Part shown: positions 472 to 56,088 of the stretch, in pieces
Layout of the letters: each line of letters begins with the position of its first letter
Position numbering within the stretch: the first letter of the stretch is position 1
NCBI GenBank assembly: GCA_021414115.1
Contig: JAIOPD010000012.1
Span: forward strand, 1 to 64,000
Direction of reading: 5' to 3'
Source of the DNA: Planctomycetia bacterium
GTDB lineage: Bacteria > Planctomycetota > Planctomycetia > Pirellulales > UBA1268
Length of the DNA: 64,000 bases
Made by a program: the position numbers and the translations under genes
Notes under the pieces: generated by a model
The model's input: the letters and a program-made list of their open reading frames with translations, nothing else
What the model was told of the DNA's origin: nothing
Databases searched by the model: none

Positions 472-667
472 CGCGGAGCGGGTTGGGGTGGAGGCCGTCT
501 ACCCCGCGCTCGCCATTGGGGCTTCCCGACCCACGAACCGTGCCTGCCGGGATTCCGGGAAGCCCGGAGCGCGAGCGACGGGTATACGCATGGCGACCCA
601 AAGAGCCGACGCGGAGCGGGTTGGGGTGGAGGCCGTCTACCCCGCGCTCGCGCTTGGGGCTTCCCGA
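472..667. repeat. REP cluster 1, upstream of the RAYT gene (1.4 units of a 138-bp repeat)
   Basis: Three copies of the 32-nt element occur: form A reversed at 497-528 and 635-666, form B forward at 556-587. Blocks beginning at 470 and 608 repeat with an exact offset of 138 bp. Each A copy is preceded by a conserved GC-rich stretch that includes GGGGTGGAGG. Form A can fold as CCCC...GGGG around an inner GC stem; form B has CCCG...CGGG instead. The cluster begins immediately after the folD stop codon and ends just before the RAYT promoter. Confidence 0.9.
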
Positions 668-681
668 CCGGAAGCGGCGGG

Positions 682-709
682 TTGACAAAGTAATATACGC
701 ATGTACACT
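682..709 (+). promoter_or_regulatory. Predicted promoter of the RAYT gene
   Basis: A perfect -35 hexamer TTGACA (682-687) is followed after 16 nt by TACACT (704-709), a 4 of 6 match to the -10 consensus. The ATG at 717 is only 7 nt further on, so transcription should begin at or next to the start codon and give a leaderless mRNA. No Shine-Dalgarno sequence is present, consistent with that reading. Confidence 0.45.
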
Positions 710-716
710 CACGCGA

Positions 717-1241
717 ATGTTTCATGAACCCGGGTCTGTCGTGTGCTCCGAACCCGTCGCGTGGTTTCTCACGTGGACGACCTACGGGTCGTGGCTTCCC
801 GGAGATGACCGTGGGTGGGTGGATCGACGACGTGGTGTTCAGGGTGGAAACCAGTTCGTGGAACAGGCCGCCCGTCGGCGGATGTCGATGCAGCCGATCA
901 CACTCACGCCGCTCGAGCGAGGATTGATCGCAGAGTCCGTGTCAGCCCATTGCCGTATTCGTGGCTGGACCCTGCATGCGTGTCAGTGCCGCACCCAACA
1001 CGTGCATGTGGTGGTGACCGCCGCCAATTCTTCCGCGCGGGCAATGATGAGCGAACTCAAGGCATGGGGGACACGAGCCCTCGACGGGCAGCCCTCGCCG
1101 ATCAGAGGGCCGCGAAGCACGGCGACGTCGCGGCGCTGGTGGGCCAAAGGAGGAAGCTGCCGGGTGGTGTTCGACCAGCGCGGACTCGAGAATGTCGTGA
1201 CCTACGTGCGTGAGTGCCAAGATCGACCCCGGGAGAAATAG
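717..1241 (+). CDS. REP-associated tyrosine transposase (RAYT, IS200/Y1 family)
   Basis: A 174-residue Y1 (HUH) single-strand DNA transposase-like protein of the RAYT group, which is thought to spread REP hairpin elements without carrying its own insertion-sequence ends. The N-terminal family signature WFLTWTTYGSWLPGDDRGWV is at residues 16-35. The metal-binding HUH motif is HVH at 95-97 (QHVHVVV) and the probable catalytic tyrosine is Tyr163 in VVTYVRECQ. The length and the Trp-rich stretch near residues 141-150 fit an intact protein. ATG 717 was chosen because it lies just downstream of a promoter-like sequence and ahead of the conserved block. Tandem 138-bp REP units lie on both sides (472-667 and 1249-1573), the standard arrangement for a RAYT and its substrate. 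Activity is inferred, not shown. Confidence 0.85.
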   Translation: MFHEPGSVVCSEPVAWFLTWTTYGSWLPGDDRGWVDRRRGVQGGNQFVEQAARRRMSMQPITLTPLERGLIAESVSAHCRIRGWTLHACQCRTQHVHVVVTAANSSARAMMSELKAWGTRALDGQPSPIRGPRSTATSRRWWAKGGSCRVVFDQRGLENVVTYVRECQDRPREK

Positions 1242-1248
1242 CGGCTCC

Positions 1249-1573
1249 GTGGGGTGGAGGCCGTATACCCCGCGCTCGCGCTTGGGGCTTCCCGACCCAC
1301 GAACCGTGCCTGCCGGGATTCCGGGAAGCCCGGAGCGCGAGCGACGGGTATACGCGTGGCGACCCAAAGAGCCGACGCGGAGCGGGTTGGGGTGGAGGCC
1401 GTCTACCCCGCGCTCGCCCTTGGGGTTTCCCGACCCACGAACCGTGCCTGCCGGGATTCCGGGAAGCCCGGAGCGCGAGCGACGGGTATACGCATGGCGA
1501 CCCAACGAGCCGACGCGGAGCGGGTTGGGTTGGAGGCCGACTACCCCGCGCTCGCCCTTGGGGCTTCCCGATC
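1249..1573. repeat. REP cluster 2, downstream of the RAYT gene (2.4 tandem 138-bp units)
   Basis: Five copies lie in strict alternation: form A reversed at 1263-1294, 1401-1432 and 1539-1570, form B forward at 1322-1353 and 1460-1491. The array has an exact 138-bp period with 59 nt from A to B and 79 nt from B to A. The units are almost identical to those upstream of the RAYT gene and closer to each other than to most copies elsewhere in the window, which suggests recent amplification here. Confidence 0.9.
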
Positions 1574-7115: not shown

Positions 7116-7178
7116 CGCGCCGTTCACGCTCCCGGCGCCCGCCCCAATCGCTCCGCGCTATCGTCGACGTCGTCACCC

Positions 7179-7352
7179 GTATACCCGTCGCTTGCGCTCC
7201 GGGCTTCCCGAAATCCCCGACGCCACGGGTCACGGCTCACGCCGCTTCCCGCTTGGAAGCCCCAAGCGCGAGCGCGGGGTATACGCTCTCCACCTCAACC
7301 CGCTTTCCGCTGCGTCCCGTCGGGAAGCCCCAAGCGCGAGCGCGGGGTATAC
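7179..7352. repeat. REP cluster 3
   Basis: Form B reversed at 7179-7210, then form A forward at 7253-7284 (first bases altered to TTGG) and 7321-7352. The spacing is 74 and 68 nt, less regular than in other clusters. The copies lie between the Rrf2 gene and the structured region at 7.4 kb. Confidence 0.85.
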
Positions 7353-7398
7353 GTTTTCCACTCCGCAAGTCGCCGTGCAGACCCACATGGTCGCGGCG

Positions 7399-7610
7399 CA
7401 AAAAAAGGGCCCCCGGAACGGTCCAGGGTCCAGGGGGGCGGAGAACCTGGACCGTTTCCGGGAGCGATTGGACGATCAACGCCGGGAAGGACACGGTCCC
7501 GACGTCGGCGGCGAGCATCCGTGCTGCCGGCGACGTCGGGCGGGATGAACCTCGTAAGGCAACCCCGTGGCCTTCAGGCGGGGGGACAGTACGGATCGTT
7601 TTTTTCAGGG
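7399..7610. other. Structured intergenic region, possible small RNA with minus-strand terminator
   Basis: Three successive inverted repeats occupy this gap. The first (about 7410-7462) pairs CCCGGAACGGTCCAGG with CCTGGACCGTTTCCGGG and is flanked on the plus strand by a run of A at 7400-7407, so on the minus strand it reads as a long GC-rich hairpin followed by T8, a textbook intrinsic terminator. The second (about 7498-7540) pairs CCCGACGTCG with CGACGTCGGG. The third (about 7563-7584) pairs CCCC with GGGG and is followed by TTTTTTT at about 7599-7606 on the plus strand. I do not recognise a known RNA family and open frames here look accidental. A minus-strand RNA of about 200 nt, or a bidirectional terminator, are the main readings. 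Confidence 0.45.
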
Positions 7611-7792
7611 TCAAGGTCGTTCCCACCGGTGTTCCGAGCGTGTTTCACGCATCTCCGCCGGCCCGCATCCAGCCCAGCCTGCCGGCATTCCGCCACGTGG
7701 CGGCAGACAGACGTGTCGGCGCGGACTGGGAAAGAACGGGTATGATCGCCGCGGCCCGACCGACATCGACCCGACCGAGGAGTTTTGCCCCG

Positions 7793-8410
7793 ATGGCGAC
7801 CGTCACCCCTACCCTGCCGATCCCGTCCGCCGGCGCACCGCCGACCCCCGAGGCCTGGGCGGCTGCCTTCGCGGCGGCGCTGCCCTACGCTGCATTTTTG
7901 GAGCGGCACGGCACGACCGAACAGCGTGATCGGTGGCACGCCTTTCATGGGAAGGTGGTACTCACGCCGCCGCAGCGGCAGCTGCTCGGCAGTTTTGTCC
8001 GGAAGATGCCGGTGCTCGTGCTCGCCGGCGCCTGGTGTGGAGACTGCGTCAACCAGTGCCCGATCTTCGCTCACTTCGCGGCGGCCGCGGCCTCGATCGA
8101 CCTGCGGTTTCTCGACCGCGACGCCCTGCCCGACATCGCCGCCCATCTCAAGGTCTGCGGCGGACAGCGGGTCCCCGTCGCCGCCTTCTTCAGCGAGGAC
8201 TTCACGCCCATCCTCTTTTACGGCGACCGGACGCTCTCCGCATACCGCGCAGCGGCGGCGGCTCAGCTCGGCTCCTCGTGTGCGTCGGGCGCCGCGCCGC
8301 CCCCGGCGCAGGCGATCGCTGCGGTCGTCTCCGACTGGCTCGACCAGTTCGAACGGGTCCATCACATCCTGCGACTGTCCGCCCGCCTGCGCGAAAAACA
8401 CGGCGACTGA
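7793..8410 (+). CDS. Thioredoxin-family protein
   Basis: A 205-residue thioredoxin-fold protein with the redox motif WCGDC at residues 81-85, preceded by the core strand VLVLAGA. There is no signal peptide, so it should act in the cytoplasm. The start at 7793 is preferred over ATG 7742 because a GAGGAG ribosome-binding sequence lies 10 nt before it. The C-terminal third is Ala-rich and ends in a helix (LDQFERVHHILRLSARLREK). A third cysteine follows the pair in CVNQCP. The partner is unknown. The next gene begins 2 bp after the stop. Confidence 0.8.
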   Translation: MATVTPTLPIPSAGAPPTPEAWAAAFAAALPYAAFLERHGTTEQRDRWHAFHGKVVLTPPQRQLLGSFVRKMPVLVLAGAWCGDCVNQCPIFAHFAAAAASIDLRFLDRDALPDIAAHLKVCGGQRVPVAAFFSEDFTPILFYGDRTLSAYRAAAAAQLGSSCASGAAPPPAQAIAAVVSDWLDQFERVHHILRLSARLREKHGD

Positions 8411-8412
8411 TC

Positions 8413-8790
8413 ATGACAAGCCGCGAACGCTGGACCGTCTATCCGCTGTTGTTCCTCGCCATCGGACTGGCACTCCGCGCCGTGGCCGTGCCGCCCGACA
8501 AACTCGCCGTGGGTGTCGTCGAGGCCAGCCGGATCGTCTGTGGTGAGATTGTCGTCGCGGCGGACGGGGGCACGAAGCTCGTGCACATCGGCCGCGTCAA
8601 AGGGGGCGGCGGCGGTCGGATCGAGGTCAACGACGACTCGGGTGTCGAGGCGATCGCCATCGGCACCGGCCTGGAACACCGCGACGGCTTCGTCGAGTTT
8701 TTCAACGGCGAGGGGCAGCCGATCGGGCGGCTCAGCCCGGGCGGACCGCCCGCGGAACCGCCACCCGTTCCGGCATCAGTCGAAAACTGA
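8413..8790 (+). CDS. Small membrane-anchored protein of unknown function
   Basis: A 125-residue protein with one N-terminal hydrophobic helix (about 9-26, YPLLFLAIGLALRAVAV) that is a membrane anchor or uncleaved signal. The body (27-105) is a beta-rich region with VEASRIVCGEIVVAADGG and a glycine run, followed by a Pro-rich tail. It lies 2 bp after the thioredoxin-family gene and is probably co-transcribed with it. The stop codon overlaps the duplicated tRNA 3' end. I could not assign a function. Confidence 0.65.
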   Translation: MTSRERWTVYPLLFLAIGLALRAVAVPPDKLAVGVVEASRIVCGEIVVAADGGTKLVHIGRVKGGGGGRIEVNDDSGVEAIAIGTGLEHRDGFVEFFNGEGQPIGRLSPGGPPAEPPPVPASVEN

Positions 8791-8818
8791 AATACACCCG
8801 GCAGGACTCGAACCTGCA
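8790..8818 (-). pseudogene. Duplicated 3' end of tRNA-Arg (29-bp direct repeat)
   Basis: The 29 bases 8790-8818 are identical to 8854-8882, which hold the T arm and acceptor 3' strand of the tRNA-Arg gene. No D arm or anticodon arm follows, so this is a fragment. The 64-bp offset resembles a tRNA attachment-site duplication left by an integrated element that is now gone, or a local slippage event. Confidence 0.85.
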
Positions 8819-8856
8819 GACTGGTTTCACGCGGCGCGAGCCATGTGCCCCGAAAA

Positions 8857-8929
8857 TACACCCGGCAGGACTCGAACCTGCAACCCTCGGTTCCGAAGAC
8901 CGATGCTCTATCCATTGAGCTACGGGTGC
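8857..8929 (-). tRNA. tRNA-Arg, anticodon TCG
   Basis: The 73-nt sequence folds as a complete cloverleaf: acceptor GCACCCG paired with CGGGTGT (first pair G-U), D arm GCTC/GAGC, anticodon arm TCGGT/ACCGA with loop CTTCGGA, T arm GCAGG/CCTGC with loop TTCGAGT, discriminator A. The anticodon TCG reads CGA and related arginine codons. The CCA end is not encoded. The T-rich TTTTCG directly after the 3' end could help termination. Confidence 0.96.
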
Positions 8930-9098
8930 CTGGCGACAATCGTACCGGTTTTGGGGATCGGTCAACCGGGTGGCCGCGGGACCGGCGGAGAGCCTGGCCG
9001 CCTGGGGGCTGGCGTCGTGTATCTTTGAGGAGATTCTTCTGGGCGGACGGCTCTGGGACGCTCCCCGCGGCTGAGGGCCCATCCGCGGGCGGTTTTGC

Positions 9099-9773
9099 AT
9101 GGCACACATCACACTCCGCGTGCTCCACGGCGCCGACCGGGGCCGGGTATTCAGCGACCTGCCCACGCCGGTGACCATTGGCCGCGAGGAAGGCAACTCG
9201 ATCCAGCTCAACGACGAGCGGATCAGCCGTTACCACCTCAAGCTCCAGCAGGACAACGACAAGATCGTCGCCACAGACCTCGAGAGCACCAACGGCACCA
9301 AGGTCAACGGCGAGGACATCCAGGTGAGGATCGTCCGCCACGGCGACATGATCTCCCTGGGTCGATCGCTCCTGCTGGTCGGTTCCCACAGCGACATCGA
9401 CCGCCGCATCGTAGCCCTCGCGGCGAAACACCCGCCGGCCGCGGCTGGCCACGCGCGGGAACTCGAAGAACGGATGCGGCGGATCGCCGAGCACCATTCC
9501 GACGTGATCGAAGACGTTTCGGCGGTGCGATCGCCGCTCTTGCCCGCGGGTCCGCCGCCGCTGCCCGAACGACTCAGCCCGGCACAGTCGGCGGAACTGA
9601 GCGAACTGCTCGAATACGTCCAGAACGTTCTTCGCGACGCGAGCGAGGGAGCCGTGATGCGAGCCAACGCCGAGAAGGTGGAACTCGAGTTTCCCAACTG
9701 GCAGGCGGTGCTCGAGCTTCAGGCCCGGCTCGCCGAGTTGCTCCGCCAGATCGGCGAGCCGCTCTCGGACTGA
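9099..9773 (+). CDS. FHA-domain protein
   Basis: A 224-residue cytoplasmic protein with an N-terminal forkhead-associated domain (about 5-95), which binds phosphothreonine peptides. Diagnostic residues are GRE at 28-30, SRYH at 43-46 and STNGT with VNG at 63-71. After residue 105 the chain is helical with a Pro-rich hinge (PLLPAGPPPLPERLSP) and an amphipathic C-terminal helix (WQAVLELQARLAELLRQIGE) that may mediate self-association. No protein kinase or phosphatase is adjacent, so the partner cannot be read from context. It is transcribed in the same direction as dnaE but separated from it by three REP copies. Confidence 0.88.
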   Translation: MAHITLRVLHGADRGRVFSDLPTPVTIGREEGNSIQLNDERISRYHLKLQQDNDKIVATDLESTNGTKVNGEDIQVRIVRHGDMISLGRSLLLVGSHSDIDRRIVALAAKHPPAAAGHARELEERMRRIAEHHSDVIEDVSAVRSPLLPAGPPPLPERLSPAQSAELSELLEYVQNVLRDASEGAVMRANAEKVELEFPNWQAVLELQARLAELLRQIGEPLSD

Positions 9774-9849
9774 GCAGCCGCCCGCGGGTTGCCTCGCCGC
9801 GCCGCTCCGCCACTCGCGGGTTGCGCAAGGCCTCGGCGCTGCCTCTCGT

Positions 9850-10037
9850 CGGGAAGCCCCAAGCGCGAGCGCGGGGAATACGTCCTCCACCCCGTCCCGC
9901 TCCGCACCACAATCGCGGTCGCCACCCGTCTACCCGTCGCTCGCGCTCCGGGCTTTCCGAGAGTCGCCCGACGCCACGTCAACTCGCTCGGCCACGCTTC
10001 TTCGTCGGGAAGCCCCAAGCGCGAGCGCGGGGAATAC
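9850..10037. repeat. REP cluster 4
   Basis: Form A forward at 9850-9881, form B reversed at 9928-9959, and form A forward at 10006-10037, each 78 nt after the previous one. Both A copies end in GGGGAATAC rather than GGGGTATAC and are followed by the conserved CTCCACCCC linker. The cluster fills most of the 360-bp gap before dnaE. Confidence 0.88.
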
Positions 10038-10079
10038 GTCCTCCACCCCGATCGGCTCCGCACCACAATCGCGGGGAAT

Positions 10080-10107
10080 CCGACACGCCTGCGGCGTTTG
10101 CTAGACT
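10080..10107 (+). promoter_or_regulatory. Predicted dnaE promoter
   Basis: CCGACA (10080-10085, 4 of 6 to the -35 consensus) is followed after 16 nt by TAGACT (10102-10107, 4 of 6 to the -10 consensus). The ATG of dnaE is 26 nt further on. The same TAGACT hexamer precedes the genes at 27607 and 28584. Confidence 0.35.
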
Positions 10108-10133
10108 CCCGGCTTCCTTCGCGAGGCCCACGG

Positions 10134-13100
10134 ATGAGCACGCAGTCGTTCGCCCACCTTCACTGCCACAGCCACTACAGCCTTCTCGACGGCGCCAGCT
10201 CGATCGAGCGGCTCGTCGACCGGACGGTGGAACTGGGCATGAACGCCCTGGCCATCACCGACCATGGCAACCTCCACGGCGCCTTGGAGTTTTACGAGGC
10301 CGCGAAGGCCGCCAAAATCAACCCGATCATCGGCTACGAGGCCTACATCGCCCCTGGCAGCCGCTTCCAAAAAGACGCCGGCAGCCAAAGGGATTCGAGT
10401 TACCACCTCACGCTCCTGGCCCGCGATCGCACCGGCTTCGCCAACCTCCTGAAGCTGGCCACGAAGGCCTACCTCGAGGGCTTCTATTTCAAGCCGCGGA
10501 TCGACCGCGAACTGCTCGAGCAATACGGAGAGGGACTGATCTGCCTGTCGGGCTGTTTGTCGGGGGAGTTCAGCCGCTCGCTCATCGGCAGTTCACGCGA
10601 GCAGCGGGAGTCGCTCACGCAGGCCCGTGAGGTGGCGGGCTGGTTTCAGAAGACGTTCGGCGATCGTTACTTCATCGAGATCCAGGACAACGGCCTCGAT
10701 GTGCAGCGGCAGGTGACGGACGTGGCCCTCGAGATCTCGAAGGAGCTCGGCATTCCGCCGGTCGCCACCTGCGACTGTCACTATGTCAACCGTGAAGACG
10801 CCGAGGCGCAGGACATCCTGCTGTGCGTCAACACCGGCCGGTTCCGCAACGACGCCTCGCGGATGCGGATGGACTCGAGCGAGTTCTATCTCAAGAGCCC
10901 CGAGGAGATGCACGAGGCGTTCGTCGGCCTCGACCGCGGGCTGGTGTCGGCGGCGGTGAACCGCAGTCAGGAGATCGCGGAGTCGGTGTCGATCGACCTC
11001 GACCTGGGCAAGCGACACTTCCCCGGCTTCGACGTCCCGGGCGGCCTGACGGCCTCGGAGGAGCTCCGCCGGCTCTGCCTCGAGGGTCTCCGCGAGCGCT
11101 ATGCGGGCGTGCCCAAGCGCTGGGCCGGGGGCGTCGTGCCGGCCGATACAGCCACTGGCGAACTCGACGAGCAGGCGGTCGTGCGACTCGACCGCGAACT
11201 CTCCGTGATCGATACGCTCGGCTTCGCCAGCTACTTCCTCATCGTCTGGGACTTCGTCCGACACGCCCGTGAGAAAGGTATCCCGGCCGCGGCACGAGGC
11301 TCGGGCGTGGGGTCGCTCGTTGCCTATTCCCTCTACCTCTCGCACGTCTGCCCGCTCGAATACGACCTGCTCTTCGAGCGGTTCCTCGACGTCAATCGCC
11401 GCGAGGCGCCCGATATCGACATCGACTTCTGCAAGGAGCGTCGCGGCGAGGTCATCGACTACGTCAAGAAGAAATACGGCGAGGCCAACGTCGCGCAGAT
11501 CGGCACGTTCGGCACGCTCGCCGCCCGGGCCGCGATCCGCGACGTCGGGCGGGCGCTCGGCATGCCCATCCCGCGGGTGGACCAGATCGTGGCTCTCGTG
11601 CCCGACCAGCTCGGCATCTCGCTCGAAGACGCCGCGGCCACCGGCTCGCAGCTCGCGGCCGCCTGCGAAGCCGACCACGAGATCCGCGAGCTCGTGGGCC
11701 TCGCCAAGCAGATCGAGGGGCTGGCCCGCAACGTCGGCACCCACGCCGCGGCCGTCGTGATCGCCGATCGGCCGCTCGTCGAATACGTGCCACTGCAACG
11801 GGTGACGGGCAAGGAGGAAGTGATCACGCAGTGGGCCATGGGCGACGTCGAGCGCGCCGGCCTCATGAAGATGGACTTTCTCGGCCTCCGCTACCTGACC
11901 GTCGTGGCCAAGACGCTCGAGATCATCGAGCAGACAACCGGGGCCCGACCCGACCCCTTCGCCTTCCCGCTCGACGACAAGGCCGCTTTTGCCACGCTCT
12001 GTCGCGGCGAGACAAAGGGTATTTTCCAGCTCGAGAGCGGCGGCATTCGCGACCTGCTCCAGCGGATGAAGCCCGACCACTTCCTCGACATCGTCGCCGT
12101 CAACGCCCTCTACCGGCCGGGACCGCTCGAGGGCGGCATGGTCGACGAATACGTCAACGTGAAGCACGGCCGCAAGCGGCCGGAGTTTCTCCATCCCGTC
12201 ATGAGGGACGTGCTCGGCGAGACCCACGGCGTGATGGTCTACCAGGAACAGGTGATGCGGATCCTGGAGCGGCTCGGGGGCATCGAGCTCTCCAGCGCCT
12301 ACACCTGCATCAAGGCCATCAGCAAGAAGAAACTCGAGACCATCGCCGCGTTTCGCGAGCAGTTCGTCGCCGGCGCTCAGGCCCAGGGGCTTTCCAAGCA
12401 GCAGGCGGAGGAGGTCTTCGCGCTGATCGAGAAGTTTGCCGGCTACGGCTTCAACAAGAGCCACTCCACCGCCTACGCCCTGCTCGCCTTCCAGACCGCC
12501 TACCTCAAGACCCACTTTCCCACCGAGTTCATGGCCGCCCTGCTCTCGGGCGACATCACGGGCCGCAACTTCAAGAAGAAAGACTCGCTCGTCGAGCACA
12601 TCGAGGACTGCCGCCGCATGGGGATCGAGGTCGCGCCGCCCGACGTGAATGCCTCGGCTCCCGATTTCAGCGTGGCCGGCGGCCGGATTCTGTTCGGGCT
12701 CGCGGCGGTGAAGGGCTGCGGCGTGCAGGCCTCCGAGACGATCGGCGCCGAGCGGGCCAAGCGGGGGCCGTTCCGCGACCTCCACGACTTCTGCGGGCGG
12801 CTCGATTCATCGCTCGTCAACAAGACGGCGATCGAGAACCTCGCGAAGGCCGGCGCCCTCGATTCGCTCGGTGGCCACCGCGGCGGCCTGCTCGCCGGCA
12901 TCGAGCGGGCGATGGCGGCGGGCGCCTCGCAGCTCGCCGACCGCAAGAGCGGGCAGAAAAACCTGTTCGCCGCCCTCGACGACCCGCAGCCGGCCGTCGC
13001 CGCTGCGGCCCCAACCGGCCTTCCCGACGTGCCGCCGCTCTCCGACCTCGAGATGCGGTCCAACGAGAAGGAGGTGCTCGGCTACTACATCCACAGTCAT

Positions 13101-13772
13101 CCGCTCGCCGAGTTTCAGGGCGTGCTCGACGCGATCTGCACGCACGGCACGGGCGATCTCGGGGCGACCAAGGCGAAAGACAACGTCGTCATCGGCGGCC
13201 TCGTCGCCGCCCTCAAACTCTCCAACACCAAGCAGGCCCGGCCTGGCTCCACGCACACGCGGTATGGAATGTTCGACCTCGAGGACATGAACGGCCTCGT
13301 GCGGAGCATCTGCTGGCCGGAAGACTACGCGCGGCTCGGGGAGCACCTGCAGCCCGATGCCGTGGTGGTCGTCGGCGGATCGATCGACCGCCGCGCCGGC
13401 AGCGAGGAGACCAACCTGATCGTCAACGAGCTGCTGCCGATCGCCGACGTCTGGCGGCTGCAGCCGCGGAGCGTCACGGTGAAGATCGTCGAGGGTGTGC
13501 ATGACGCCGCGGTGCTCGACCGGCTCGCCGAGATTTTCCGCCGGCATCCGGGGAAGTCGTCGCTGCGGCTGGTGCTCGACCTCGCGGACGGCTCGCGGGT
13601 GCTCATGGAGGCCGACCGCGACAAGGTCGGCTGGTCGCAACAGCTCCATCACGAGCTCGTCGACCTGCTCGGCTCCGGCTGCGTGCGGGCCCCCGTGTCG
13701 CTGGGTGGCCGTCGGGAGGAGAGCTCGTCGCGGCGCGGCCCGGCCGGCCGGGCCGCCGCCGGCGTGGGCTGA
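10134..13772 (+). CDS. dnaE: DNA polymerase III alpha subunit
   Basis: A 1212-residue replicative polymerase of the DnaE1 type. The N-terminal PHP domain starts with HLHCHSHYSLLDGAS and includes AITDHGNLHGA. The polymerase active site has RGSGVGSLVAYSL and the metal-binding aspartates in PDIDIDFCKERRGEVIDY (about residues 425-440). Further along are helix-hairpin-helix and OB-fold regions (about 930-1130). The length is close to the family norm of about 1160, with a slightly longer Arg/Gly-rich tail (RREESSSRRGPAGR). ATG 10134 starts exactly at the conserved PHP block. The gene stands alone, as is common for dnaE. It is a core component of the chromosomal replisome. Confidence 0.96.
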   Translation: MSTQSFAHLHCHSHYSLLDGASSIERLVDRTVELGMNALAITDHGNLHGALEFYEAAKAAKINPIIGYEAYIAPGSRFQKDAGSQRDSSYHLTLLARDRTGFANLLKLATKAYLEGFYFKPRIDRELLEQYGEGLICLSGCLSGEFSRSLIGSSREQRESLTQAREVAGWFQKTFGDRYFIEIQDNGLDVQRQVTDVALEISKELGIPPVATCDCHYVNREDAEAQDILLCVNTGRFRNDASRMRMDSSEFYLKSPEEMHEAFVGLDRGLVSAAVNRSQEIAESVSIDLDLGKRHFPGFDVPGGLTASEELRRLCLEGLRERYAGVPKRWAGGVVPADTATGELDEQAVVRLDRELSVIDTLGFASYFLIVWDFVRHAREKGIPAAARGSGVGSLVAYSLYLSHVCPLEYDLLFERFLDVNRREAPDIDIDFCKERRGEVIDYVKKKYGEANVAQIGTFGTLAARAAIRDVGRALGMPIPRVDQIVALVPDQLGISLEDAAATGSQLAAACEADHEIRELVGLAKQIEGLARNVGTHAAAVVIADRPLVEYVPLQRVTGKEEVITQWAMGDVERAGLMKMDFLGLRYLTVVAKTLEIIEQTTGARPDPFAFPLDDKAAFATLCRGETKGIFQLESGGIRDLLQRMKPDHFLDIVAVNALYRPGPLEGGMVDEYVNVKHGRKRPEFLHPVMRDVLGETHGVMVYQEQVMRILERLGGIELSSAYTCIKAISKKKLETIAAFREQFVAGAQAQGLSKQQAEEVFALIEKFAGYGFNKSHSTAYALLAFQTAYLKTHFPTEFMAALLSGDITGRNFKKKDSLVEHIEDCRRMGIEVAPPDVNASAPDFSVAGGRILFGLAAVKGCGVQASETIGAERAKRGPFRDLHDFCGRLDSSLVNKTAIENLAKAGALDSLGGHRGGLLAGIERAMAAGASQLADRKSGQKNLFAALDDPQPAVAAAAPTGLPDVPPLSDLEMRSNEKEVLGYYIHSHPLAEFQGVLDAICTHGTGDLGATKAKDNVVIGGLVAALKLSNTKQARPGSTHTRYGMFDLEDMNGLVRSICWPEDYARLGEHLQPDAVVVVGGSIDRRAGSEETNLIVNELLPIADVWRLQPRSVTVKIVEGVHDAAVLDRLAEIFRRHPGKSSLRLVLDLADGSRVLMEADRDKVGWSQQLHHELVDLLGSGCVRAPVSLGGRREESSSRRGPAGRAAAGVG

Positions 13773-13910
13773 GACAGGTTTCCACCGGCCAAAACCATGG
13801 GAAACATGGCCAAACCTCGCATTGCCCCCTGGCCCCCGCGGCACTACGCTCCACCTCTGTTTTCGCCGCCCATCTCTTGTCGCTGATCCTTCCCGTCCCG
13901 GGTGAACTCG

Positions 13911-15302
13911 ATGCACACGACCCTCAACAGCTCCCGCATCTGTCGCGTGATCATGGCCGTTGCCACGGCGTTTGCCCCCATGGCCAACGGCACGGCTTTC
14001 GCACAGGTCGGCGCTGCTCAGGCAGCCGGTGTCCTGGTCGATGCCAATGGCGTGCTGCGGACGAAGGCGGTCGCTGACCCCGGGCTTTCCCAGGAGCGTC
14101 GCAAGGCGGCGGTGGCCACCCTGCCCGGCGATCTTCAAAAGCGGGTGCCGCTGCGCAAAGTCGCCCTCTCGCGGCTCGAGGCGGCTCTCGCCACGCATGC
14201 GGCCGATGGCCGCGGCATCCCCGACTCGATCGAGAAACTCGCCGGCCTGACCCGCGTGCACTACGTCTTCGTTTATCCCGCCGAGGGCGATACGCCCGGT
14301 GAGATCGTCATCGCGGGCCCGGCCGAACCCTGGATGACCGATGCCGCAGGCCGCGTCGTCGGTGTCGAGACCGGCAGTCCGACCGTCCTGCTCGAGGATC
14401 TTGCCACTGCCATCCGTGCCTTCGCCCCCGGCCAGCCGCAGGATCGTCTCGTCGGCTGCTCCATCGACCCGACGAAGGAAGGCCTCGCCGCGATGCAGGA
14501 CTTCCTCCGCAAGACCGGCCGACTCAACCCGCAGGGCGGAGCCGATCAGATCGTGGCCGGCATGAAGGAGGCACTCGGGCCGCAGACGGTGAGCGTGCAG
14601 GGCGTGCCTGCGGCGACCCACTTTGCGCAGGTGATGGTCGAGGCCGACTATCGCATGAAACTGATCGGCATCGGGCTCGAGCAGCCCCCGGTGAAGATGC
14701 CCACGTGGATCGATCTGGCCAGTGCCGGTGCCGTGGCGGCCAACGCCCTGCAACGCTGGTACTTCGTGCCCGACTACGAGTGTGTGAAGATCGCCGAGGA
14801 CGACCTCGCCATCGAACTCGTCGGTCAAGGAGTAAAACTCTGTGGTGCCGACGAGGTGGTCCGAGCCGACGGCACCCGCCTCTCCGCCACTCGCGCCGAC
14901 AAGCCGAGCAAGACGTTCACCGAGGCATTCACCCGCGACTACACGAAGATCGCCGCCAAGAGTCCGGTCTACGCCCAGCTCCGCACCATGATCGACCTCG
15001 TCGTCGCCGCGGCGTATCTGCAGGAGCACGACGGCTACGGCAAGGCGGCCTGGGCCGCCGAGACGCTCCGCGACGAGAAGGCCTATCCGATCGAGCGGCT
15101 CACGCCGCCGGCCCAGGCCGAGACCGCGATCCATGCCGTGTGGCGCAACAACCGGCTGCTCACGCCGATCGGCGGCGGGGTGACGGCCCATCCGCGAATG
15201 GCTCTTGAAGCCCCCAACCTGATCATGGACGAGAAGGGCGAGGTCGCCGCCGCCCGCACCGCCGCCAAGGATCTGCCCGCCGAAGGCTGGTATTGGGACT
15301 GA
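13911..15302 (+). CDS. DUF1598 family secreted protein
   Basis: A roughly 463-residue exported protein. The N-terminal signal peptide ends near NGTAFAQ (about residue 30), after a hydrophobic stretch VIMAVATAFAPMA. The rest is a long alpha/beta region with conserved blocks such as KLAGLTRVHYVFVYP, CSIDPTKEGLAAMQ and WYFVPDYECVKIAEDD, which I match to the planctomycete DUF1598 family. ATG 13911 was chosen over GTG 13902; both keep the signal peptide. No catalytic motif is apparent and no neighbour suggests a role. The family assignment rests on recall of the sequence pattern, so treat it as probable. Confidence 0.75.
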   Translation: MHTTLNSSRICRVIMAVATAFAPMANGTAFAQVGAAQAAGVLVDANGVLRTKAVADPGLSQERRKAAVATLPGDLQKRVPLRKVALSRLEAALATHAADGRGIPDSIEKLAGLTRVHYVFVYPAEGDTPGEIVIAGPAEPWMTDAAGRVVGVETGSPTVLLEDLATAIRAFAPGQPQDRLVGCSIDPTKEGLAAMQDFLRKTGRLNPQGGADQIVAGMKEALGPQTVSVQGVPAATHFAQVMVEADYRMKLIGIGLEQPPVKMPTWIDLASAGAVAANALQRWYFVPDYECVKIAEDDLAIELVGQGVKLCGADEVVRADGTRLSATRADKPSKTFTEAFTRDYTKIAAKSPVYAQLRTMIDLVVAAAYLQEHDGYGKAAWAAETLRDEKAYPIERLTPPAQAETAIHAVWRNNRLLTPIGGGVTAHPRMALEAPNLIMDEKGEVAAARTAAKDLPAEGWYWD

Positions 15303-15365
15303 GCCGCGGAGCCCTGGGAGGGCTTCGTAGGTGCGGGGCTGCCCGCGCCAGGAGACGCTCTGCGT

Positions 15366-15475
15366 CGGGAAGCCCCAAGCGCAAGCGCGGGGCATACGCC
15401 CTCCACCCCAACTCGCTCCGCATCGCCGACACGCCCGCCACCCGTCTACCCGTCGCTCGCGCTCCGGGCTTCCCG
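15366..15475. repeat. REP cluster 5
   Basis: Form A forward at 15366-15397 (variant GCGCAAGCG, ending GGGGCATAC) and form B reversed at 15444-15475, 78 nt apart. The pair lies between the convergent ends of the DUF1598 and universal stress protein genes, where the two arms could act as a bidirectional terminator or RNA stabiliser. Confidence 0.88.
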
Positions 15476-15499
15476 AGAGAGGCACACGCCGCCGCGGCG

Positions 15500-16393
15500 C
15501 TACTTTTCGACGGGCACGATCAGGACGTTGGCGGCGGAACGCGTGAGCACGGCCTCGGAGGTGCTGCCGAGCAGCCAACGGGTGAGTGCGTCGGTCGGCG
15601 TGCGACCGATCACGACGAGGTCGATCCCGTCGGCCGCGGCTCGTTCGAGGATCTTCTCGCCGGCGTTGCCCTGCGACACGATCGGCTTGGCCGCACGGAA
15701 GGCCGGCGGCAGAGTCGCGGCAAACGCGGTGAGGGTGCCCTCGAGTTCCGTCACCTCGTCATCGTGCTCCTGTTGCCAGGCCTTCGCCACGGCGGCCGTG
15801 TCGGGGTCGCGGACCCGCTTCTCGAGCCACGTCGGCAGCGGGCCGGCGAGCAGTGCCTCCGCGACACCGATCACGCAGCCCTGGGTGCCGGTTGCCCAGT
15901 GAACGTGTCCCAGCGCTTTCGCGACCGCGGCGGCGCTGGCGGGGTGATGGCAGGCGAGCACCTTGAGCCCGCGGTCCTGCGGCGGCGCCGACCGTACCAC
16001 GAGCACCGGCAGGCGTGCCCCATGCACGACAGCGCGGGAGACGCTTCCGAGGAGGAGTTGCTGCAGCGAGCCGTGTCCGCGGGCACCGACCACGATCATG
16101 TCGGCCTGCCACGTGACGGCGGCGTCGAGGATGCCCAAGGCGGCGGCCGCGTCGTTCTGGATGAACTCGGCCCGGGAGGCGACATCGGCCGGGAGCAGGT
16201 CGCGGGCGTCGGCAAACACGGCCGCCGCGGCGCCGCCGATGATCGACCGCGAACCATCGGGCACCCGCTTCTCGAGCTCGCGTGGCGAGTAGTAGAGCGC
16301 GAGCAGATCCACGGCCGGGTCGCAGATGCTGGCGGCCACTCGCACCGCGTTCAACGACGTTTCCGAACCGTCCACCCCGATGAGCATTCTCAT
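15500..16393 (-). CDS. Universal stress protein, two UspA domains
   Basis: A 297-residue cytoplasmic protein with two tandem Usp domains (about 1-145 and 150-297). The first domain carries the ATP-binding pattern GARGHGSLQQLLLGSVS and begins with the conserved MRMLIGVDGSE. The second has GRTPTDALTRWLLGSTS, in which the first glycine-rich part is altered, so it may bind nucleotide less well. ATG 16393 is preferred because GGAGAG lies 8 nt upstream and the family start matches; the frame continues to 16453. Proteins of this family help cells survive starvation or oxidative stress, but the mechanism here is unknown. Confidence 0.88.
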   Translation of the reverse strand: MRMLIGVDGSETSLNAVRVAASICDPAVDLLALYYSPRELEKRVPDGSRSIIGGAAAAVFADARDLLPADVASRAEFIQNDAAAALGILDAAVTWQADMIVVGARGHGSLQQLLLGSVSRAVVHGARLPVLVVRSAPPQDRGLKVLACHHPASAAAVAKALGHVHWATGTQGCVIGVAEALLAGPLPTWLEKRVRDPDTAAVAKAWQQEHDDEVTELEGTLTAFAATLPPAFRAAKPIVSQGNAGEKILERAAADGIDLVVIGRTPTDALTRWLLGSTSEAVLTRSAANVLIVPVEK

Positions 16394-16449
16394 TGCGATC
16401 TCTCCACGTATGTCGGTCTTGGTTCGGTATCCCAGTACGGTGTCACGAT

Positions 16450-17466: not shown

Positions 17467-17585
17467 CGGGAGCGGACGGCGGAAGTTGACAGGCCGGGGC
17501 GGTGCGGCCACTCTGGACGTCCCGTAAGGATACGGGCGTGCGACCCGGAAGAGAAAGCGGTCATCTACAGGAGCGTCGAGCAGCA

Positions 17586-18155
17586 GTGGCAGGCTACAAC
17601 ACGAGCGAGTTCAAGAAGGGCCTCAAGGTCCAGATCGACGGCGACCCGTACATCATGATCGAGTGCAACTTCGTGAAGCCGGGCAAGGGCCAGGCGCTCT
17701 ACAAGTGCAAGTTGCGGAATCTCCTCCGCAACACCGTTCTCGACCGCACCTACAAGAGCGGCGACTCGCTCGATGCCGCCGACATCTCCACGATCGAGGC
17801 CCAGTTTCTCTACAAGCAGGGCGACCAGTTCGTGTTCATGGATCAGGAGAGCTACGAGCAATACGAGCTCTCCAAGGAACAGGTTGACGACTCCTGGAAG
17901 TGGATCAAGGAGGGCACCGTCTGCTCGATGCTGCTCTACAACGGCAACCCGATCTCGATCGAGCCGCCGAACCACATGGTGCTCAAGGTCGAATACGCCG
18001 AACCGGCCATGCGGGGCAATACGGCGACGAACCTCACCAAGCCCGTGAAACTCGAGACGGGCGCCGACGTGATCGTGCCGGCGTTCATCGAGCAGGGCGA
18101 CCAGATCAAGGTCGACACCCGCACGGGCGAGTATCTCGAACGCGTGAAGGCCTGA
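17586..18155 (+). CDS. efp: Elongation factor P
   Basis: A 189-residue translation factor that relieves ribosome stalling at polyproline stretches. The three-domain fold is complete, and the modification loop PGKGQA places Lys34 exactly where beta-lysine is attached in EpmAB-type systems. The start is a GTG at 17586 (V-A-G-Y-N-T-S-E-F), with GGAG about 11 nt upstream; ATG-initiated extension upstream lacks family similarity. The divergent neighbour is epmB, so modifier and target are paired. It is followed by a small membrane-protein gene and a 2-oxo acid decarboxylase gene. Confidence 0.95.
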   Translation: MAGYNTSEFKKGLKVQIDGDPYIMIECNFVKPGKGQALYKCKLRNLLRNTVLDRTYKSGDSLDAADISTIEAQFLYKQGDQFVFMDQESYEQYELSKEQVDDSWKWIKEGTVCSMLLYNGNPISIEPPNHMVLKVEYAEPAMRGNTATNLTKPVKLETGADVIVPAFIEQGDQIKVDTRTGEYLERVKA

Positions 18156-27508: not shown

Positions 27509-27529
27509 GCGACCCATTCCGCCAGACGG

Positions 27530-41648: not shown

Positions 41649-41772
41649 CCCTGATAAATAAAACGAATGTTGCCGCCGTGCATCATCCGGAAATCAAATA
41701 CAAGATAGCCGGTCGAAACCCCCGGTCAAGCGACCACGAGTGGACATCCGGAGCCCTCACGCGAAACCACCC

Positions 41773-41940
41773 GGATACCCGTCGCTCGCGCTCCGGGCTT
41801 CCTGAGCCCCCGACGCTCCGCCTCTTCTTCGGGAAGCCCCAAGCGCGAGCGCGGGGTATACGGCCTCCACCTCGCGTCCCTCCGCGGAGCCCTCGCGCGA
41901 AGCCACCCGGCTACCCGTCGCTCGCGCTCCGGGCTTCCTG
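41773..41940. repeat. REP cluster 10
   Basis: Form B reversed at 41773-41804, form A forward at 41830-41861 and form B reversed at 41909-41940, giving spacings of 57 and 79 nt. Both B copies end in CTTCCTG rather than CTTCCCG. The cluster fills much of the gap between the LysR gene and the porin gene. Confidence 0.88.
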
Positions 41941-43619: not shown

Positions 43620-43932
43620 CGGGAAGCCCCAAGCGCAAGCGCGGGGAAAACGCCCTCCACCCTCACCTGCTCCGCGGCACTCTCACGCGAAGCCACCCGT
43701 CGACCCGTCGCTCGCGCTCCGGGCTTCCCGCGCACCCGATGCCACGGCTCCCGGTTCGCTGCGCCCTCCCGGCGGCCGTCGAAGACGCGTCGGCGCTCAC
43801 GGCGGTGGCATGCTTCTCCGCCGGGAAGCCCCAAGCGCAAGCGCGGGGAAAACGCCCTCCACCCCGACCTGCTCCGCGGCACCCTCACGCGAAGCCACCC
43901 GTCTACCCGTCGCTCGCGCTCCGGGCTTCCCG
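43620..43932. repeat. REP cluster 11 (two A-B pairs)
   Basis: Form A forward at 43620-43651 and 43822-43853 (both with GCGCAAGCG, ending GGGGAAAAC) and form B reversed at 43699-43730 and 43901-43932. Each pair has the 79-nt A-to-B spacing, and the two pairs are 202 nt apart as a direct repeat that also contains the shared sequence GGCGGCCGTCGAAGACGCGT. Both lie in the 620-bp gap between the porin and argB. Confidence 0.9.
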
Positions 43933-47250: not shown

Positions 47251-47264
47251 GCGGGTCGCGACCC

Positions 47265-47430
47265 GGATACCCGTCGCTCGCGCTCCGGGCTTCCCGACGG
47301 GGGACACGCGATGCTTTCCGTCGGGAAGCCCCAAGCGCGAGCGCGGGGTATACGTCATCCACTGCCTCCCGCTCCGCGTCACCCCACGGGTCGCCCCCGC
47401 TTTCCCGTCGCTCCCGCTCCGGGCTTCTTG
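47265..47430. repeat. REP cluster 12
   Basis: Form B reversed at 47265-47296, form A forward at 47322-47353 and form B reversed at 47399-47430 (the last one decayed: GCTTTCCCGTCG...CTTCTTG). Spacings are 57 and 77 nt. The group lies between the convergent ends of argF and the glycosyltransferase gene. Confidence 0.87.
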
Positions 47431-53348: not shown

Positions 53349-53464
53349 GTTTCGGTTCCGGCGCCGTTTGGTATCTTGGGTCGCAGAGTATGGTCCGTGG
53401 AGCGGCCGCGGAAGCCCTCATGATCGGTCGAGTGGTTTGTGACGGGGAGGCGAACACAGCAGCC

Positions 53465-53842
53465 ATGCCGATGGACATCGTCAACCAGCAAGACGCGGTG
53501 CCGTTCACCACCGTCGACGGCTCGACGATCCGCGAGCTGCTCGCCCACCGCAACTCCTCGATCCGCCAGCAGAGCCTGGCCGAGGCCCGCCTCGCCGCCG
53601 GATGCGCCACGGTGCCCCACCATCACGCCGTGACCGAGGAGATCTACTACATTCTCACCGGCACGGCCGACATGACGCTCGCCGACGAGACGCGGCCGGT
53701 CCGCCCCGGCGACGCGATCGCCATCCCGCCCGGCGTTCGACACACCATCCGCAACACGGGCCCGGGCGAGCTCGTCTTTCTCTGCACCTGCGCCCCCGGC
53801 TACGAGCACTCCGACACGTTTCTCGAACAGCCCGCCACCTGA
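53465..53842 (+). CDS. Cupin-domain protein
   Basis: A 125-residue single-domain cupin. Motif 1 is HHHAVTEEIYYILTG with metal-ligand His and Glu residues, and motif 2 is VRPGDAIAIPPGVRHTIRN. The fold commonly binds a metal ion in small-molecule enzymes or sensors, so the function cannot be set. ATG 53465 was chosen as the nearest start to the domain, though ATG 53420 is possible. It is divergent from chrA and lies 50 bp ahead of the pilus/secretion ATPase gene. Confidence 0.85.
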   Translation: MPMDIVNQQDAVPFTTVDGSTIRELLAHRNSSIRQQSLAEARLAAGCATVPHHHAVTEEIYYILTGTADMTLADETRPVRPGDAIAIPPGVRHTIRNTGPGELVFLCTCAPGYEHSDTFLEQPAT

Positions 53843-53892
53843 CCGTCCCGCCGCCACCAAGCCTCCTCATCCCTCACCGTCTGCCCCACCGC

Positions 53893-55593
53893 ATGTCCAA
53901 CGCGTTCCCCCAGATTCTCGTCGCCGAAGGGATCGTATCCGCCGAGCAGCTCGCGGAGGCCGTCCGGATCGCCGGCACCTCGGGCAAGCAGGTGCACGAC
54001 GAGGTGGTCCGGCTCGGTTACGCGCCCGGTGAGAAGGTGATGAAGGCCCTCGCCAAGGCCCATCGCCTCAAGTTCGTCAACCTCGCCGACATCGCGGTGC
54101 CCGAGGAGGTGATCGACCTGCTGCCCGAGAGCGTGGCCCGCGAAAACACGATCTTCCCGCTGTCGGAGTCGGGCGGCTCGCTCCGCATCGCCACCTGCGA
54201 TCCCACCGACATGGACGCGCAGGAGAAGCTGCGGTTCATCCTCAATCGCGACATCGAGATGGCCCTGGCCGTCCGCGAGCAGATCGTGGAGGCGATCAAC
54301 CGCCACTACGGCCTGTCCGACGGCGAGAGCGCCGACTCGATGCTTCAGGAGTTCACCGACACCGCGATCGACTTCACCGAGACGGCGGTCGAGCAGCAGG
54401 CCGCGGCCGCCCAGGAAGAGACCTCCGACGCGCCGGTGGTGAAGCTCGTCAACCTCGTGATCACCGAGGCGGTGCAGTTGCGTGCCAGCGACATCCACAT
54501 CGAGCCCTTCGAAGACCGCGTCCGGATCCGCTACCGCATCGACGGCCGGTTGGTGGAGCGCGACAACCCGCCCCGCCGGCTCCTGGGCGCGATCCTGTCG
54601 CGCATCAAGATCCTCTCCAAGCTCGACATCGCCGAGCGGCGTCGGCCGCAGGACGGCCGTATCAAGCTCACCGCCGACGGCAAAGACTACGACCTTCGCG
54701 TGAGCGTGTTGCCGACCAACCACGGCCAGTCGGTGGTGATGCGGATCCTCGACAAGGACAACATCAAGGTCGGCATCCGGCAGCTGGGGCTCGCCGAGAA
54801 CGAGTTTCGCCAGTTCAAGAACCTGATCCGCCGGCCCAACGGGATCATTCTCGTGACGGGCCCCACGGGCTCGGGCAAGACGACCACGCTCTACGCCTCG
54901 CTCAACGAGCTCAATCGCCCCGACACGAAGATCATCACCGCCGAGGATCCGGTCGAGTATTACCTCGCCGGCATCAACCAGGTGGAGATCAAGCACCAGA
55001 TCGGCCTCGACTTCGCGCGGGTCATTCGAGCCATGCTGCGGCAGGCGCCCAACGTGATCCTCGTGGGCGAGATGCGCGACACCGAGACGGCGCAGATGGG
55101 CATCCAGGCCTCGCTCACGGGGCATCTTGTGTTTTCGACGCTCCACACCAACGACGCTCCCGGCGCCATCACGCGGATGATCGACATGGGCGTGCCGGCC
55201 TATCTCGTGGCGTCGAGCGTGATCGCGGTGCTCGCGCAGCGGCTCGTCCGCGTCAACTGTCCGAAGTGCAAGCAGCCCTTTCAGCCGCTCGACACCCAGA
55301 TCGAGGCGGCGGGGATCACCCCGGAGATGCTCAAGGGGGCGACCTTCATGAAGGGCCGCGGCTGCGCCCATTGCACGAAGTCGGGCTACAAGGGCCGGTT
55401 GGGCATTTTCGAGCTGATGGTGATGAACAACAAGATCCGCGAGCTCGCCTTCCAGGGGGCGGCCACCCAGGAAATCCGCCGGGCGGCCGTGGGCAGCGGG
55501 ATGAAGGTGATGTTCGACGACGGCATCCAGAAAGCCCTCCGCGGGATCACGACGCTCGACGAAGTCTTCCGCGTGTCGAAAAAAGCCGAATAG
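53893..55593 (+). CDS. Type II secretion/type IV pilus assembly ATPase (GspE/PilB), copy 1
   Basis: A 566-residue hexameric ATPase expected at the cytoplasmic base of a pilus or pseudopilus. The N-terminal MshEN-like domain (about 10-150) is followed by the ATPase core with Walker A GPTGSGKTTT and the Asp box EDPVEYY; the zinc-binding cysteines are in CPKCKQP and GRGCAHCTKSGYKGR. The C-terminal end FDDGIQKALRGITTLDEVFRV is typical of PilB. It is separated from the rest of the locus by a 495-bp gap with two REP copies, and a second GspE/PilB gene lies at 57649. Confidence 0.92.
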   Translation: MSNAFPQILVAEGIVSAEQLAEAVRIAGTSGKQVHDEVVRLGYAPGEKVMKALAKAHRLKFVNLADIAVPEEVIDLLPESVARENTIFPLSESGGSLRIATCDPTDMDAQEKLRFILNRDIEMALAVREQIVEAINRHYGLSDGESADSMLQEFTDTAIDFTETAVEQQAAAAQEETSDAPVVKLVNLVITEAVQLRASDIHIEPFEDRVRIRYRIDGRLVERDNPPRRLLGAILSRIKILSKLDIAERRRPQDGRIKLTADGKDYDLRVSVLPTNHGQSVVMRILDKDNIKVGIRQLGLAENEFRQFKNLIRRPNGIILVTGPTGSGKTTTLYASLNELNRPDTKIITAEDPVEYYLAGINQVEIKHQIGLDFARVIRAMLRQAPNVILVGEMRDTETAQMGIQASLTGHLVFSTLHTNDAPGAITRMIDMGVPAYLVASSVIAVLAQRLVRVNCPKCKQPFQPLDTQIEAAGITPEMLKGATFMKGRGCAHCTKSGYKGRLGIFELMVMNNKIRELAFQGAATQEIRRAAVGSGMKVMFDDGIQKALRGITTLDEVFRVSKKAE

Positions 55594-56088
55594 GCCCCCG
55601 CCGCCGGCGCGTCGATCCGACGCCGCCTCCCGGCCACCGCCGCCGTCCGCCGTCCGCCGTCGGGAAGCCCCAAGCGCGAGCGCGGGGTATACGCGTCGCC
55701 CTAAAATCGGCGTCCGAGGCGCCTCCCGGCCGTGCCTCGATGCCACCCGTATACCCGTCGCTCGCGCTCCGGGCTTCCCGGGGCACTCGACGCCCCGCGT
55801 CCACCTCGCGCGCCGGGATTTTCTGGCCCGGGGGAGACTTTTCTGCCGATCCTGCGCATAATATCGAGACAAGACGCCGACGTCCGTCAGGGGCTACGGT
55901 TCGGCGCTTCAAGAAACGCTTCCCGTGACCGGGCTCGCCTCTCTATTCTCGCCCCCTTCCCGCTTCGCCGTTTCCGCGGCCAGGCAACTGTTCCGGCAAC
56001 GTGTTTCCGGTCAGAATAGAGGTGCCTTTGGAGGAAGCTTCGAAGGCGTTCCATCGCCCGCCGAGCCCATCCACTTGGGGACGTATCC
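55594..56088. other. Intergenic region before the PilT/GspE/GspF locus
   Basis: No gene is seen in this 495-bp gap. It holds the two REP copies at 55661-55780. A -10-like CATAAT at 55857-55862 and CAGAAT near 56012 are possible promoters for the downstream locus, but neither has a good -35. GGAGG near 56032 is too far from the ATG at 56089 to serve as its ribosome-binding site. Confidence 0.5.
55661..55780. repeat. REP cluster 13
   Basis: Form A forward at 55661-55692 (full GGGGTATAC end) and form B reversed at 55749-55780, 88 nt apart, somewhat wider than the usual 77-79. The cluster lies between two ATPase genes of the pilus/secretion locus. Confidence 0.88.

Follow-up and report, generated by a model that had tools for sequence, protein, structure and literature searches.

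The first 64,000 nucleotides of contig JAIOPD010000012.1 of a Planctomycetia bacterium (assembly GCA_021414115.1), hereafter the window, carry 35 copies of a 32-nt hairpin element of the repetitive extragenic palindromic (REP) type and a gene for a putative HUH transposase resembling the REP-associated tyrosine transposases (RAYTs). An initial annotation of this DNA had counted the same 35 copies, 19 of form A and 16 of form B, and our analysis agrees, placing them within 496-55779; it did not mention the transposase gene at 717-1241, which sits between an A-B-A cluster (496-665) and an A-B-A-B-A cluster (1262-1569) (Table 1). That all copies lie in intergenic gaps was also borne out, as none of the 35 shares 16 nt or more with any called gene; the gene caller, which was home-made and crude, failed to call the transposase, and no copy overlaps 717-1241 by coordinates.

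Table 1. Transposase gene and REP clusters of the window, with the state of the orthologous place in the sister genome G017 where compared
Feature	Position	Strand	Remarks
Class-3-like HUH Y1 transposase (TnpA_Y1 / RAYT-like), 174 aa	717-1241	+	Profile match 717-1232, motifs, structure model
Promoter-like TTGACA (682-687), 16 nt, TACACT (704-709), upstream of transposase	682-709	+	Read by eye
REP cluster left of transposase gene: A- 496-527, B+ 557-588, A- 634-665	496-665		
REP cluster right of transposase gene: A- 1262-1293, B+ 1323-1354, A- 1400-1431, B+ 1461-1492, A- 1538-1569	1262-1569		138-bp tandem unit
REP cluster B- 7178-7209, A+ 7254-7285, A+ 7322-7353	7178-7353		At inversion breakpoint versus G017
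REP cluster A+ 9851, B- 9927, A+ 10007	9851-10038		G017: single A
REP dimer A+ 15367-15398, B- 15443-15474	15367-15474		G017: no REP
REP pair B- 27420-27451, A+ 27478-27509	27420-27509		
REP singlet, form A	28487-28518	-	
REP dimer B+ 30321-30352, degenerate A- 30398-30429	30321-30429		7 mismatches in A
REP dimer A+ 34260-34291, B- 34336-34367	34260-34367		
REP cluster B- 41772, A+ 41831, B- 41908	41772-41939		G017: no REP
Two tandem REP dimers A+ 43621, B- 43698, A+ 43823, B- 43900	43621-43931		G017: one dimer
REP cluster B- 47264, A+ 47323, degenerate B- 47398	47264-47429		6 mismatches in last B; common to G017
REP dimer A+ 55662-55693, B- 55748-55779	55662-55779		118-nt subtype, 54-nt spacer; common to G017

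The elements are widespread in the genome. A search of the assembly (4,346,575 bases in 144 contigs) for their 26-nt cores with at most 3 mismatches returned 363 of form A and 328 of form B, a few intermediate copies perhaps being counted twice, against no match in the whole assembly for the pattern read backwards, so that chance is excluded. A 464-kb sample, consisting of the window and 400 kb of other stretches of the same genome (20 stretches), contained 119 copies at up to 8 mismatches (61 A, 56 B and 2 intermediate), and all counts out of 119 below refer to it. Their distribution is patchy, with five of the twenty 20-kb stretches devoid of REPs (L017, L020, L034, L035 and L036) and one carrying 17, a contrast that may stem from genome regions or from binning. 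An Rfam scan of the window at the gathering score matched a single tRNA and returned no family for the hairpins.

On the top strand form A reads GGG-AAG-CCCC-AA-GC-GCGA-GC-GC-GGGG-TATACG, from which form B departs by CCCG, GA/GA and CGGG. The two forms had been said to differ at positions 9, 10, 21 and 22, all paired; on the 32-nt element the correct positions are 10, 11, 22 and 23, and while the switch from C-G to G-C is real, the Watson-Crick swap is confined to pair 10/23, the change at 11/22 being from A.C to G.A and non-standard in both forms. The GGAA foot (positions 2-5) is found in 111 of the 119 copies and AAG in 116; 90 copies have a GCGA loop and 118 a loop of the GNNA type, and at the internal mismatch 56 copies read AA/GC and 54 read GA/GA.

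REP copies are usually found in company, 104 of the 119 having a neighbour less than 130 nt away, and among the 62 instances of neighbours at this distance 58 combine opposite strands with different forms, three share both strand and form, and one joins opposite strands of the same form. The earlier view of the composite as a bacterial interspersed mosaic element (BIME) is thereby confirmed: inverse REPs alternate and are joined by a linker, with the 138-bp unit beside the transposase gene as a tandem example. In each dimer the tails (the TATACG ends) are turned towards one another, separated by a spacer that is 44-45 nt long in most cases and 54 nt in a second subtype, and the 41 dimers of the sample measure 109 nt (21), 108 nt (11), 118 nt (7), 107 nt (1) and 110 nt (1). 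The near-fixed A-to-B spacing had thus been noticed correctly, although the value given, 77-79 nt, has to be revised, since tail-to-tail start-to-start distances in the window are 75-77 nt in 11 of 12 dimers and 86 nt in one. The B-to-A spacing, put at 56-59 nt, is less regular, the head-to-head distance being 58-61 nt in six of nine cases in the window, otherwise 76, 80 and 125 nt, and ranging from 35 to 125 nt in the sample. The sequence GCGGAGC...GGGGTGGAGG, assigned previously to a flank of form A, is indeed present but belongs to the dimer spacer. Over 34 dimers of up to 110 nt, the mean consensus identity is 0.955 for the A hairpin and 0.983 for the B hairpin, against 0.758 for the spacer.

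The transposase gene was recognized with a profile from four relatives within the genus, which matches the window at 717-1232 (E 4.9e-67). A Pfam Y1_Tnp search of the genome had given no match, and the notion of REPs without a transposase, which followed from it, was overturned by this profile from weakly matching relatives. The gene is the sole clear class-3-like transposase found in the assembly; a second match (C86:56612, E 0.0465) contains an internal stop and was not accepted as real. The protein carries the motifs TWTTYG, QHVHVVV, WAKGGS and YVRECQ, and its HVH and YVRECQ supply the HUH motif and single catalytic tyrosine of a REPtron transposase; also as in a REPtron, the gene is flanked by REPs which are dispersed between genes as well. 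An AlphaFold model built with 28 sequences (pLDDT 87, pTM 0.79) has as its closest structure in the PDB 4er8, a REP-associated tyrosine transposase with its REP hairpin (E 2.5e-5, TM 0.50/0.52, 12% identity), which we take to be an E. coli protein, followed by the IS608 and ISDra2 transposases.

Class 3 of the TnpA_Y1 proteins is a little-studied kind. According to passages of Quentin et al. 2018 (PMC6006769), it was profiled from 24 proteins, may be intermediate between the insertion-sequence and REP transposase classes, has genes flanked by 'atypical secondary structures' which can reach high copy numbers (~600 in Solibacter usitatus), and calls for further experiments. Judged against that text, our protein shares with class 3 the Y....Q motif (YVRECQ), W[TA] (WA), an N-terminal block FLTWTTYGSWLPGD and HVH, as well as its occurrence in Planctomycetes and a hairpin-flanked gene. 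The printed motifs NHVH and YV[VI][AENY]EQ are not found in full, the protein reading QHVH and YVRECQ and NHVH being present in none of nine genus proteins, and we therefore employ the label class-3-like. The foot differs too, GGAA here (GGGA one base out) as opposed to CnGA, in a comparison whose register is uncertain, and strict two-form heterodimers such as these are not described in the passages of that paper considered here.

A set of 22 genomes of the genus, our own included, was compared. Pfam Y1_Tnp matches occur in 11 of them, some weak, two of the weak loci having REP-like hairpins around them. A clear class-3-like gene is present in nine (E 2.3e-60 or better), with HUH motif and catalytic tyrosine intact in all nine proteins, and every one of these genes has two forms of AAGCC...GNNA...GGG hairpin on either side. 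The orientation of each form relative to the gene is constant at eight loci and mixed in G015. The pair of forms varies by lineage: form A is common to our genome and its sister G017, and both forms are nearly common to G005 and G016. The transposase tree unites our genome with G017 (99/95) and G013 with G005 and G016 (93/85, under the tool's mark for full support), and since the latter three have in common a bulged hairpin class with an A-T pair, the hairpin type appears to follow the transposase lineage. REP counts were taken from the larger of two models tuned to known forms and run at E-value limits of 0.01 and 0.0001, with ~150 scored candidates per genome, so high counts are lower bounds; they extend from at least 83 to at least 157 in the nine carriers and from 0 to 12 in the 13 non-carriers except G020 (at least 115) and G021 (at least 90), the carriers being the richer on these capped counts (Mann-Whitney p 8e-5). 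The exact pattern GAAGCCCNNAGCGCGAGCG occurs in five of 60 genomes searched (our own 395, G017 205, G010 28, G014 26 and G008 1) and in none of them outside the genus.

Relatives of the transposase are encoded on 297 stretches of the contig database, and among the best 80, which were kept, 77 are titled planctomycete (three of these as the anammox genus Kuenenia) and three only 'bacterium'. An automatic hairpin scan proved too strict for distant loci and was replaced by a search for shared 14-mers in 400-nt flanks, with a control, at the 64 of these 80 loci that have at least 300 nt on both sides. The two flanks have a 14-mer in common at 52 of the 64 loci, against 4.4% in mismatched controls; all eight loci of this genus are positive, as are 44 of the 56 outside it. 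Many of the repeats at 24 loci inspected by eye read roughly AGCCCGA.GC-GNNA-GC.A.GGG, from which it seems that the hairpin family extends beyond the genus. At four planctomycete loci (L101, L137, L144 and L153), the hairpins beside the class-3-like gene contain GCTAGC, and in several of them the foot ends in GA, nearer to the reported CnGA.

The initial annotation had seen in the covarying forms a sign of selection on RNA or single-stranded DNA structure. We rejected the A/B comparison by itself as evidence, given that a single pair is swapped, but compensatory stem changes across species do speak for such selection. A gap-free alignment of 12 unbulged hairpins scores 0.133 for covariation, compared with 0.054 for shuffles (2/500 reach it) and no more than 0.085 for slid alignments, and has 3 double-change pairs against 1.8 (19/500) and 6 further pair types against 4.0 (42/500); these sequences, like those of the sets that follow, are kin, so that shuffles overstate their independence. 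The 80 distinct model-fitted rows, drawn from the 150 best of 203 model matches, score 0.122 against 0.035 (0/500), nearly all of it due to pair 10/23, and exhibit no excess of pair types (140/500). In the bulged class (seven distinct hairpins) 98.2% of cells pair, four pairs change on both sides (1/500) and the covariation score is matched by none of 500 shuffles. Finally, in a hand-joined set of 18 hairpins from nine genomes (16 distinct; G010_b was excluded, its bulge being placed elsewhere), pairing is seen in 111 of 128 cells, compared with 88.3 for shuffles (0/2000), and five of eight pairs have more than one Watson-Crick type, the extra types (6 against 3.7) being borderline (105/2000).

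The sister genome G017, which aligns with ours in long blocks mostly 82-90% identical, allows the REP clusters to be followed place by place. For 13 of our 56 clusters the fetched part of G017 contains an alignable counterpart position, of which 10 are occupied and 3 empty (two of ours, at C61 10888 and 11355, fall in one G017 gap and are each counted), and for 12 of the 33 clusters of G017 our genome contains one, with 9 occupied and 3 empty; further comparison adds one occupied and one empty place. At shared places the array length varies, and the dimer at C61 15465 has an orthologous dimer with the other spacer subtype. A segment of 10.8 kb (7401-18165) is inverted relative to G017, with boundaries at 7116-7401 and 18165-18244; G017 has REP clusters with oppositely oriented A copies at both breakpoints, and the inversion likely arose by REP-REP recombination.

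Between the two species, a REP resembles its counterpart at the same place no more closely than it does copies elsewhere. We chose ten orthologous A pairs and ten B pairs by hand, pairing within arrays being partly a matter of judgement, and excluded those copies in surplus that lacked a one-to-one partner, as well as the A at C61 40242, which has a one-base deletion. The mean distance is 2.80 for the A pairs and 2.83 for pairs from the two species that are not orthologous (3076/5000 shuffles are as close or closer), compared with 1.56 and 1.62 inside the two species; for B the values are 4.6 and 4.81 (1573/5000), with 2.53 and 3.84 within species. Position 1 of form A is G in our genome and A in G017 in all ten pairs, positions 27 and 29 differ in five pairs each, and over positions 4-26 the two species disagree at 6 of 230 letters. 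Across our genome as a whole, position 1 still varies (GGG in 39 and AGG in 17 of 61 A copies; AGG in 36 of 38 in G017). The dimer at 55662-55779 and its G017 counterpart (C26 28717-28834) lie in a block ~90% identical, have identical 54-nt spacers, and differ in their hairpins at position 1 of A alone. This absence of extra similarity between orthologous copies, compared with random ones across species, suggests concerted evolution of the REPs. Independent insertion at the same sites could have the same outcome; however, the shared clusters keep their order and neighbours.

Several known systems resemble this one. In passages on E. coli REPtrons and BIMEs with their y, z1 and z2 REPs (PMC8266576), inverted pairs of different forms, often in tandem, occur with a transposase beside REPs, and 4er8, the best match of our model, is such a protein-hairpin complex; the AA/GC mismatch of form A corresponds to the AA-GC described there as a conserved stem bulge of E. 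coli REPs. The E. coli system differs by its GTAG foot and class 2 transposase, and our family by the GA/GA of form B and a shorter stem. With REPINs, in the portions of Bertels and Rainey 2011 (PMC3116915) that concern us, it shares an inverted REP doublet as the unit and a cognate RAYT nearby, but the doublets here are two-form heterodimers with a semi-conserved spacer mostly of 44-45 or 54 nt. Passages of Di Nocera et al. 2013 (PMC3733652) likewise describe heterodimers in the GTAG and CGTC superfamilies, sited mainly between convergent and codirectional genes, and pairs of stem-variant forms in the P. aeruginosa GTAG-24 dimers, the preference for heterodimers being left unexplained there; neither tag is the conserved foot here. 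Among the papers listed, our literature search found nothing on this planctomycete A/B hairpin family, and no work joining REP sequences, concerted evolution and RAYT; REPtrons and Planctomycetes were mentioned together in PMC3733652 and PMC6006769 alone.

The 32-nt elements are very probably the REP hairpins of a REPtron-type mobile system served by the class-3-like HUH Y1 transposase at 717-1241. Direct support comes from the copy number, the heterodimers, the hairpin-flanked transposase at nine of nine genus loci and the compensatory stem changes across species, and also from presence and absence between sisters in both directions and from variants that are common to a whole species at orthologous sites. 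In its architecture the system matches known REPtrons, from which it is set apart by its foot, its type of transposase, its near-strict heterodimers and its shared species-specific feet. The position of the transposase between clusters points to recognition of single-stranded DNA by this enzyme more than to a role in RNA. Most likely, the transposase recognizes the hairpin on one strand while the DNA is single-stranded, by its GGAA foot, short GC lower stem, internal mismatch (AA/GC in form A and GA/GA in form B), upper stem of two base pairs and loop of the GNNA type. Cleavage by the enzyme would take place close to the foot, and A-spacer-B heterodimers of ~109 or 118 bp would be moved or copied between intergenic sites. 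The pairing of A with B probably keeps the inverted pair from forming a perfect long palindrome, or supplies two distinct ends. We infer the strand that is read and the site of the cut, as well as the present-day activity of the transposase and its part as driver of the homogenization.

A number of results weigh against this explanation. Neither Pfam (Y1_Tnp, E 0.051) nor NCBIfam (REP_Tyr_transpos, E 0.0019) recognizes the window protein above its cut-off, and the transposase profile matched no sequence in the PDB. The GTAG (or GT[AG]G) that precedes REPtron hairpins on the 5' side is replaced by the GGAA foot. Single hairpins folded as DNA are no stabler than shuffles (z 0.06 and -0.43), and we dropped the DNA stability of the lone hairpin as evidence. 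Most alignable clusters are shared between the sisters rather than new, and insertion ends were not resolved to single-base precision in the comparisons of the two. Furthermore, the REP-rich G020 and G021 have no class-3-like gene found in their assemblies, and six genus genomes, including G021, have other Y1_Tnp proteins (39-70 bits), at whose loci no A/B-like copies were found.

The sharing of most alignable clusters also favours a relic of a dead system, in which REPs spread in the past, the transposase gene is stable and domesticated, and the present homogeneity is due to gene conversion only; the two sister species have the transposase at one and the same locus, and one cluster switched spacer type in place. 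We regard this as possible but on balance unlikely, as the HUH motif and catalytic tyrosine are intact throughout the genus, the 1.5-kb flanks of the genes do not match one another outside two sister pairs, and both sisters have clusters of their own.

The placement of the REPs among genes bears on a further explanation. With the crude gene caller, 115 of the 119 copies are intergenic, one is in a gene and three are at stretch edges; 25 clusters lie in codirectional, 21 in convergent and 6 in divergent gaps, and the preference for convergent over divergent gaps is significant against all such junctions (53 convergent, 57 divergent; Fisher p 7e-4). Such a preference for convergent and codirectional gaps would be expected of host-retained RNA elements in 3' untranslated regions, which would stabilize or end transcripts and be kept by selection on expression, and the conservation of the stem-loops over the spacer is consistent with this, as is the folding of form B as RNA (z -2.79, 2 of 200 shuffles equally good; form A, z -1.19). 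Nevertheless, avoidance of promoters is also compatible with a tolerated mobile element, the consensus has no T-run after the hairpins, whole clusters were gained and lost in orthologous gaps, 11 of the 22 genus genomes have few or no copies matching our models, tuned as these are to known forms, and the association with a transposase is left unexplained; an RNA role of this kind seems improbable. That these REPs belong to the published CGTC- or GTAG-tagged superfamilies and depend on a different transposase is very hard to credit: 36 of the 119 copies do end in GACG, which is CGTC on the other strand, and CGTC REPs are said in passages of PMC3733652 to be without a transposase, yet this end is in the minority, the most constant foot is GGAA, and the hairpins of relatives mostly do not have it.

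Elsewhere in the window, the interval 53602-63408 contains three open reading frames with Walker A motifs, of the secretion or pilus ATPase type, and the stretches GFTLVEL, GFTLVEL and GMTLVEL; judging from these motifs, a cluster for type II secretion or for a type IV pilus probably lies here.

Returning to the REPtron-type system, a more far-reaching version, which we put forward tentatively and consider rather doubtful, is that the two forms are the ends of a near-obligatory heterodimer and differ in function, as do the left and right ends of IS200-type elements, that the foot is a guide co-evolving with the transposase, and that changes of specificity are swept in place through hundreds of copies. 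The in-place sweep is read from position 1 of form A, which differs in all ten orthologous pairs while positions 4-26 hardly differ. If true, the class-3-like enzyme would rewrite existing REPs and not just insert new ones. The genus offers nine sets of transposase and hairpins with graded divergence and two forms each, in addition to a close sister genome. The rules of recognition, the preference for heterodimers and the apparent homogenization of orthologous REPs can be tested directly in this genus.

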